Below the pieces are notes generated by a model. That model was not told the DNA's origin, searched no databases, and worked only from the letters and a program-made list of their open reading frames with translations. Below, in pieces: positions 28,279 to 30,404 of a DNA stretch of 42,191 nt (positions within the stretch are counted from its first letter, which is position 1; each line of letters starts with the position of its first letter). Both the position numbers and the translations under genes were made by a program. The DNA is from a virus, in IMG/VR virus record IMGVR_UViG_3300010151_000030, positions 1-42,191 of that record; one strand, written 5' to 3'.

Positions 28279-28983
28279 ATGTCATTATCATCGTTGTTGA
28301 CTAGAACAACACCAAAATATGAATTGAATATACCGTCAACTAAGGAAAATAAAATTTTCCGGCCATTTCTGGTGAAAGAAGAAAAGGTTTTACTGGCAGC
28401 ACAAGAAAGTCAAAGCATCAAAGAAATATATTTGGCTATTCAAGATGTTATTGAATCGTGTGTTGAAAACATTGAAAACGTCAACGAAATGCCTTTATTC
28501 GATGTTGAATATATTTTTACTCAAATTCGAGCGAAATCAATCGGGGAAATAATAACACCAGTTATTGTCTGTCCGGAAACTAATGAACAAGTACATTTTA
28601 GTATTAATTTAACTGAAATTAAAGTTCAGTTTAATAAAAAACATAAAAATATTGTAAATTTAGCAGATAATCTAAATGTTGTTATGAATTATCCGTCTAT
28701 TAAATCGTTATTAAAACGAAATGATGACACAAAAAACGATTTATATGAAATGGTTGTTGATTGTATTGAAGCAATCCAGAATGATACGGAAGAATTTAAT
28801 TGTGAAGATTATTCAAGAAAAGAAATCGAAGATTTCGTCAATCACTTAACAAAACAACAATTTTCCTTGCTTCTTGATTTTCTAATAACATCTCCTCGTT
28901 TGGAGCATACCGTAGATTACACAACATCAGATGGCGAGGAGAGGAGGCTACAACTTTCTGGACTATCTGATTTTTTTCTATAG
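28279..28983 (+). CDS. 26: gp26-like baseplate hub / tail assembly protein, with probable -1 frameshift extension
   Basis: 234 aa in the zero frame. It has the gp26-family pattern: TPKYELNIPSTKENKIFRPF, LVKEEKVLLAAQES, MPLFDVEYIFTQIRAKSIGE, a PVIVCPETNE segment, and a C-terminus LEHTVDY...LQLSGLSDFF. GGAG lies 11 nt before the start. The final codons GAT TTT TTT CTA TAG contain an in-frame T TTT TTT heptamer at 28971-28977. A -1 slip there leads into the next ORF without a stop, giving a predicted 295-aa product. This places gp26 in the position of a tail assembly chaperone, directly before the probable tape measure gene. Confidence 0.87.
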   Translation: MSLSSLLTRTTPKYELNIPSTKENKIFRPFLVKEEKVLLAAQESQSIKEIYLAIQDVIESCVENIENVNEMPLFDVEYIFTQIRAKSIGEIITPVIVCPETNEQVHFSINLTEIKVQFNKKHKNIVNLADNLNVVMNYPSIKSLLKRNDDTKNDLYEMVVDCIEAIQNDTEEFNCEDYSRKEIEDFVNHLTKQQFSLLLDFLITSPRLEHTVDYTTSDGEERRLQLSGLSDFFL

Positions 28984-29022
28984 CCCTCTGTCACATAACA
29001 TTAATTGATTATTTTCAATTAA
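28971..29022 (+). promoter_or_regulatory. Probable -1 ribosomal frameshift site and downstream stem-loop
   Basis: 28971-28977 is T TTT TTT in the gp26 frame, a canonical X XXY YYZ heptamer. The zero-frame stop follows two codons later. A perfect 8-bp stem (TTAATTGA at 29001-29008, TCAATTAA at 29015-29022, 6-nt loop) begins 23 nt downstream. That is farther than the usual 5-9 nt and AU-rich, so its stimulating role is uncertain. The -1 frame is open from the heptamer to 29165. Confidence 0.65.
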
Positions 29023-29033
29023 ATTTTCAGTTA

Positions 29034-29165
29034 ATGCAACACCATAACTACAGTTTATTCGAAATTGAAAATATGGTTCCGTGGGAAAGAGATATTTATG
29101 TGGCTTTATTGAGGGAATACATAGAAGAGGAAAATAAAAAGATATTAGAAAAGAGTATGGGATAA
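29034..29165 (+). CDS. Small tail assembly chaperone segment (43 aa from ATG; 62 aa in frameshift product)
   Basis: From the ATG at 29034 the reading is MQHHNYSLFEIENMVPWERD, then IYVALLREYIEEENKKILEKSMG. The pattern (Q-H-H-x-Y-S-L...E-x-M-x-P-W-E-R-D-I-Y-V...L-L...E-E-E) matches small proteins that follow gp26 in T4-like marine phages. No Shine-Dalgarno precedes this ATG, while the same frame continues upstream without a stop to the gp26 heptamer, and the extra residues (DYFQLNFQL) fit the family. Expression as a gp26 fusion by frameshift is therefore more likely than independent initiation. The stop abuts the next ATG at 29166. Confidence 0.7.
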   Translation: MQHHNYSLFEIENMVPWERDIYVALLREYIEEENKKILEKSMG

Positions 29166-30404
29166 ATGAAAATATTAAAAAACACATACGATAAACAACA
29201 AGAAGAAAACAAAGAATTTTCTGGTGTGTTATCTTCGTTATTAAAAGAAAAAAAACCTTCCAGACAGACCACCAAGCGTCATAATAAGGGTGATATTCAG
29301 TCCTTTTTAAAAAATTATTCTCCCGATAAATTTTCTCCTTCTAATGTTAAGTCCGAAGAATATAGCATCCCAGAATTAGAAAAAGAAAAGACACAGCAAG
29401 ACGACAATCAAATAAAATTAAATCGGAAGGCCCACAAACCTCAACTAGTAGAAATGGATGAAAAACTCTCTAGGATTTTAACTTTAATTTCTCCAGAAAA
29501 TAATTATTACTCATCCGCCAATAATACACAAAATAATAGCCCGACAACAAATAATCTTATCGAAAATTATTATCTTTCAGATTCTCCTAAAAGTTTAACA
29601 AAATCTGATCATTTGGACACCAAAGAAAGAAGAATTATTGAAAAGAACAATGTTTCTAATTCTCTGGTGGAGAAGAATGTTGAAAAGAACAATGTTTCTA
29701 ATTCTCTGGTGGAGAAGAATGTTGGCATTCTACAAAAAGCAAATCCTGCATCCCTTGTTAACACAAAATTAATAAGAAACAGCATCACAAATCATGCGAA
29801 CGATTCTACATTACAGTTAAATTTTCACCATCGAGAAAACAATCTATATGAAGAGAATGTTTTCAATAATTCAAAAAATCAAAACGTCAAATTTGTCCCA
29901 CGAATTGACAAAAATGATATTACTAAAATCCACAAAGACATTAACATTGCTAAAGTATTAAACAATACAGAAAATTCTTATGAGTATTTACCGGCCCTGA
30001 AGGATGGTGGTGTAGTAACAGAAGCAACTAAAGTAGTTGTGGGAGAAGGGGGACCAGAAGCCATAGTTCCTCTTGATCAAATGAATAAAATAATGAATCA
30101 AAAATTTCAAACCGTCCAAAATCACAATAAAACCATTACCACATCAGCCAATGAAAGTATGACCAAAAATATTTTTCTGAAAATGAATGAAGAATTGGTC
30201 AGAGAAAATGTAGAAAAACAAAGAAGCGGAGGTCTAAATGTTTCCTCTGGTTCACCAAACTTTAGTATGGGCGGAGGAGGAGGAGGAGGAGGTCAGCAAG
30301 GAGGATCACCTTCCGGAGGAGGAGGAAGGCAATCTATAGACGCATTAACTTTGAGTCTTCTTCGAAAGACATCACTCCCCCCATGGAGAAGTTCATTTGG
30401 ATAA
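29166..30404 (+). CDS. Probable short tape measure / tail core protein
   Basis: 412 aa. Near residues 275-310 is LKDGGVVTEATKVVVGEGG followed by PEAIVPL, the C-terminal signature of many tape measure proteins. It also lies directly after the chaperone pair, the standard tape-measure position. The rest is Asn/Ser/Lys-rich and low complexity, not the long coiled coil usually seen. Residues about 159-186 are a perfect 14-aa duplication (EKNNVSNSLVEKNV twice). A poly-Gly run sits near residues 368-376. If it is the ruler, about 1.5 angstrom per residue gives a tail near 60 nm, shorter than T4 (gp29, 590 aa). It could instead be a different tail-core protein. Confidence 0.6.
   Translation: MKILKNTYDKQQEENKEFSGVLSSLLKEKKPSRQTTKRHNKGDIQSFLKNYSPDKFSPSNVKSEEYSIPELEKEKTQQDDNQIKLNRKAHKPQLVEMDEKLSRILTLISPENNYYSSANNTQNNSPTTNNLIENYYLSDSPKSLTKSDHLDTKERRIIEKNNVSNSLVEKNVEKNNVSNSLVEKNVGILQKANPASLVNTKLIRNSITNHANDSTLQLNFHHRENNLYEENVFNNSKNQNVKFVPRIDKNDITKIHKDINIAKVLNNTENSYEYLPALKDGGVVTEATKVVVGEGGPEAIVPLDQMNKIMNQKFQTVQNHNKTITTSANESMTKNIFLKMNEELVRENVEKQRSGGLNVSSGSPNFSMGGGGGGGGQQGGSPSGGGGRQSIDALTLSLLRKTSLPPWRSSFG
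29640..29723 (+). repeat. 42-bp perfect tandem repeat inside the tape-measure-like gene
   Basis: Two identical 42-bp units (29640-29681 and 29682-29723) encode EKNNVSNSLVEKNV twice in frame. There is no sequence divergence between the copies, so the duplication is recent or kept by recombination. It is exactly two units of a 14-residue period. Confidence 0.9.

Follow-up and report, generated by a model that had tools for sequence, protein, structure and literature searches.

A predicted programmed −1 ribosomal frameshift joining gp26 to gp51 in the genome of an uncultured marine T4-like phage

The G-T frameshift of lambda-type tail assembly chaperones has been called widely conserved "except T4" (PMC5009743). 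In some T4-like phages the short and long chaperones are described as separate genes (PMC10885494, citing Vladimirov, Gautam and Davidson 2022, Virology 566:9), and poly-T frameshift signals have been reported in T4-like short-chaperone genes (PMC12846349, citing Vladimirov 2022). The gp51 protein of cyanophages has been noted to seem without its first 200 residues, with no cause given (PMC3037559). As represented by these citing papers, frameshifting in T4-like tail assembly chaperones is already reported (Vladimirov 2022) and the genome described here is a new example, so that it stands as a further case and not as a new phenomenon. The literature that we searched on gp26, gp51 and frameshifting, in which the 2022 paper was represented by the papers citing it, yielded no direct description of the combination.

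The present locus lies in a 42-kb T4-like phage record, which was analysed over its whole length of 42,191 nucleotides and is referred to here as the window. It shares with the T4-like gp26/gp51 chaperones both protein families and the division into short and long forms, as well as a poly-T −1 signal of the kind that PMC12846349 attributes to T4-like short-chaperone genes. T4 itself, in contrast, has two separate paralogous genes, whereas the window has one gene and a predicted frameshift. The arrangement also resembles lambda gpG/gpGT (PMC5009743) in having a predicted −1 slip at the end of the short chaperone ORF and a C-terminal extension in the −1 frame, but the protein family and the heptamer differ, and no fold match between gp26 of the window and a solved chaperone was detected. 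Neither a sequence comparison of gp26 with solved structures, which returned no solved tail chaperone, nor a confident structure model (pLDDT 94), which matched nothing in the PDB at E ≤ 0.001, recovered such a relationship. Between families this diverged, a miss of this kind would still be compatible with common descent.

The gp26-gp51 junction in the window

The genes surrounding the junction include those for baseplate wedge proteins, tail tube, head closure and gp32. The gp26 gene (28279-28983, + strand, as are all features below) encodes a 234-aa short form of the T4 baseplate family, identified by PF12322 (E 3e-54) and by PHROG 150, baseplate hub gp26 (E 9e-59). Its closest isolate relative is that of pelagiphage HTVC008M at 41% identity, and identity to the closest relatives outside its own species is 41-45%, the window lineage being uncultured. 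None of the bacterial genome contigs checked for a host link encoded a relative. Five IMG/VR contigs are identical over 500 nt around the site; these near relatives thus offer no variation to analyse.

The 3' end of gp26 reads GAT TTT TTT CTA TAG. As the sequence-only reading had proposed, a T_TTT_TTT heptamer occurs in the gp26 frame near the stop (28971-28977), with a single sense codon (CTA) between it and the TAG at 28981-28983, a spacing found in 146 of 160 non-redundant loci. From the heptamer the −1 frame stays open for 64 codons (28971-29162) and runs into the small ORF that follows, so that the predicted product of a slip is a gp26-gp51 fusion of 233 + 62 = 295 aa, the length previously suggested. 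The window's 25 genes contain 80 in-frame X_XXY_YYZ heptamers, among which this site has the longest open −1 frame (the next reaches 32 codons), and no other T_TTT_TTN at a gene end is followed by a long open −1 frame. The length of the open frame at this site is not due to chance.

The peptide encoded in the −1 frame (28977-29165, 62 codons plus the TAA at 29163-29165), which would form the C-terminal part of the fusion, is gp51 by its match to PHROG 634 (E 7e-25). It additionally aligns with the final 50 positions of the PHROG 150 profile, and PHROG 150 members therefore seem to include natural fusions. The gp51 C-terminal segment thus lies directly 3' of gp26 in the window, and tblastn gave matches to 657 phage records. 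The earlier proposal that gp26 is joined to a tail-chaperone segment is supported, with the correction that the short chaperone is gp26 itself, gp51 being the −1 segment.

We consider it very probable that a programmed −1 ribosomal frameshift joins gp26 to gp51 in the window, where we infer both the frameshifting and its rate. Most ribosomes would translate gp26 to the TAG ending at 28983 and release the 234-aa short chaperone, while a minority would slip one base back on U_UUU_UUU (28971-28977) and continue in the −1 frame as far as 29165. The 295-aa fusion would then make up a small share of the total. By analogy with lambda gpG/gpGT and the T4 gp26/gp51 pair, coating of the tape measure would fall to the short form, while the C-terminal segment of the long form would help nucleate tube or hub assembly. 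Homology and the literature suggest such chaperone roles for gp26 and gp51 of the window.

The ORF after gp51 (29166-30404, 412 aa), which had been taken for the probable tape measure, carries a short motif (GGVV..VVGEGGPEAIVPL; PHROG 15478, E 0.012) followed by a glycine-rich C-terminus. The motif is indeed common to tape measure proteins, but it also occurs in a peptidase of cyanophage S-CREM1, and the product could not be aligned with the tape measure of HTVC008M, which lies one gene further on from the gene pair. Beyond the short motif, no direct tape-measure homology of this ORF was found. A perfect 42-nt tandem duplication (EKNNVSNSLVEKNV) is present within it at 29640-29723.

Conservation of the heptamer and the −1 frame

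IMG/VR was searched with gp26 alone in order to avoid selecting on gp51. T_TTT_TTN and gp51 in the −1 frame were present together in 80/80 loci picked in this way, and the same combination occurs in isolates, including cyanophages, pelagiphages and Methylophilales, Vibrio, Sinorhizobium, Rhizobium and Pseudomonas T4-like phages. For statistics we used + strand heptamer loci, leaving out S-SCSM1 and reducing the remainder to 160 non-redundant loci; these are related to one another, so that counts overstate their independence. The base preceding TTT TTN is T in 160/160 of them against 99.6 expected from codon usage, although the heptamer is present in this set by construction and the unbiased figure is the 80/80. 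Since the unbiased set agrees with the excess of T, the constraint is on the nucleotides, beyond Phe-Phe alone. No stop occurs within 46 codons of the −1 frame in 159/159 non-redundant loci, and the length from the heptamer to the body of gp51 is fixed in 152 loci. The comparison across T4-like phages that the sequence-only reading had proposed therefore found both the heptamer and the open −1 frame conserved.

Three phages depart from this pattern. In Synechococcus phage S-SCSM1 (L014:1980-2020) the heptamer is kept, while some 11 additional bases past the gp26 stop close the −1 frame and shift gp51 into the +1 frame, either through true loss of the fusion or through an assembly error. Vibrio phage K361 (L028:2630-2870) has a gp51-like −1 ORF with a TAATG stop-start overlap and no slippery heptamer. 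In Serratia phage KNP4 of the Ackermannviridae (L026:1960-2140), a gp51-like −1 segment follows CAG GTT TTC ATC TGA, a site that contains no canonical heptamer and resembles the GTTTTT motif reported for other families (PMC12846349).

The alternative that survives best, which we nevertheless regard as improbable, is that gp51 is an independent small protein, initiated at ATG 29034 or produced by ribosomes that reinitiate past the gp26 stop, and that no fusion is made. Many relatives do have an ATG that overlaps the gp26 stop or follows it closely, where annotators start gp51. Overlaps of the TAATG or TGATG type occur in Vibrio, Rhizobium and Stenotrophomonas phages, and an ATG lies immediately past the stop in 80 of 157 relatives, where reinitiation could add free gp51. 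In the window, however, the only start available to gp51 is the ATG at 29034-29036, the likely choice of gene callers, which lies 51 nt past the gp26 stop and is preceded by no Shine-Dalgarno (SD) sequence, as had been noted for the small ORF. Nor is there support for an independent start at this position, since an SD core was found at only 1 of 117 homologous ATGs. Coding in the −1 frame 5' of this ATG is conserved and under selection: from the heptamer to the residue at ATG 29034, the −1 frame has a dN/dS of ~0.11, whereas the two other frames give ~1.35 and ~1.5. Restricting the comparison to the 34 loci with no start codon in this stretch, a feature shared by the window, gives pN/pS values of 0.41 for the −1 frame against 1.08 and 1.53. 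Because the selection extends to these start-less loci, the most likely reading is that ribosomes coming from gp26 translate the stretch in the −1 frame, and we judge that ATG 29034 is not the main start. Independent initiation would also leave unexplained the invariant heptamer and the architecture of T4-type gp51.

Transcriptional slippage on the T run, in place of a ribosomal slip, would also yield a fusion, in this case from a slipped mRNA, and the seven T's of the window, as in HTVC008M, lend themselves to such an event. However, 135 of 160 relatives have only TTTTTTC, and yet keep the exact reading phase; a run of six T's is short for polymerase slippage. The SD-like element and hairpin found in relatives at ribosomal spacings fit translation, and we consider slippage by the polymerase very unlikely. 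That a sequencing or assembly error on this homopolymer, a type of sequence that is error-prone, or gene decay has split a gp26 and gp51 that are truly in one frame is scarcely credible, being already contradicted by the five contigs identical over 500 nt and by the two-frame layout of nearly all distant relatives, isolates included.

Candidate stimulatory elements

The E. coli dnaX-type frameshift is a stimulated −1 frameshift. Many cyanophage relatives resemble it, with an SD-like element about 10 nt 5' of the heptamer and, about 5 nt 3' of it, a hairpin; in the window both stimulators are absent at these distances. At about 10 nt 5' of its heptamer the window has CTTTCTGGA instead of an SD-like element, and AGGAGAGGAGG occurs further 5', ending about 24 nt before the heptamer. 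There is likewise no hairpin 5-6 nt past the heptamer, the predicted one starting 21 nt past it.

This predicted hairpin (28999-29036, 10+4 bp, −11.5 kcal/mol) holds ATG 29034 inside its 3' arm. It is predicted to outcompete the perfect 8-bp stem (29001-29022, −5.7 kcal/mol), a weaker fold that uses the same bases. The 8-bp stem had been pointed out previously, 23 nt past the heptamer; it does exist, but it is not conserved, and we rejected it as a conserved stimulatory element. The larger hairpin is more stable than dinucleotide shuffles (z −4.2), but its margin over synonymously recoded sequences is small (z −1.7).

Most relatives have an SD-like core, formed by a Glu-Gly codon pair, 12-15 nt 5' of the heptamer (GAGGG, e.g. 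L007:2486-2490). The Glu of this pair is coded GAG in 103 of 128 cases versus 30% for the rest of gp26; GAGG or AGGG, both SD-like, occurs at 117/128 of these sites versus 11/44 Glu-Gly pairs elsewhere (p 9e-17, ignoring relatedness). Judged from this codon choice, the SD-like GAGGG is kept at the nucleotide level in the relatives.

On the 3' side, roughly one third of loci (about 55 of 157 relatives; e.g. L007:2519-2549) have a predicted 11-bp hairpin 5 nt past the heptamer. Ten of the eleven pairs were reached in 51 loci; the number expected under synonymous recoding is 2.5 if codon usage is taken overall and 19 if it is taken column by column. One pair alternates between U-A, A-U and G-C, coupling an Ala wobble base to a gp51 residue that is Glu, Val or Ala; on the gp26 tree its states imply no fewer than 10 changes. 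The alignment-based covariation count exceeds all shuffles and slid controls. RNAalifold over all 74 aligned loci gave no single consensus hairpin because lineages use different pairings, and other lineages appear to use different hairpins at the same place.

A more elaborate reading, which we put forward tentatively as possible but unlikely, is that the cyanophage frameshift is tuned by the SD-like GAGGG, U_UUU_UUC and the hairpin 5 nt 3', with pairing kept by the changes in gp51 Glu/Val/Ala and the Ala wobble base. The window lineage would have lost two of these elements and would rely on the distal hairpin, which would bury ATG 29034 and suppress free gp51. No published description of an SD-like element with a covarying hairpin was found in the literature searched, in which Vladimirov 2022 was represented by papers citing it.

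Recoding and gene duplication as routes to two chaperone forms

The T4-type layout provides a natural contrast to the window. The 2022 study reportedly describes frameshifting as conserved in several T4-like groups, with T4 itself using genes 26 and 51. T2 carries gp26 and gp51 as two genes, one on each strand, and the 3' end of gp26 is without the heptamer. T2 gp51 joins, in one frame, a PF12322 domain (residues 1-201) to a C-terminal segment that is a homologue of the −1 peptide. Aeromonas phage avDM3 and Pseudomonas phage PspYZU05 have the same two-gene layout as T2, their gp51 likewise carrying the PF12322 domain and the segment in a single frame. As read from these genomes, the short and long forms of T4-type phages are encoded in two genes, and a tree sets the single-gene proteins apart from both T4-type paralogs (98/98).

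The two chaperone forms would thus be obtained by recoding in one group of phages and by gene duplication in the other. The covarying hairpin makes the stimulators of the relatives directly testable. The predicted frameshift would also explain why cyanophage gp51 seems to be missing its first 200 residues (PMC3037559). Finally, gp51 would need reannotation in hundreds of marine T4-like phages, where it would usually be the tail end of a frameshift product and not a free protein.
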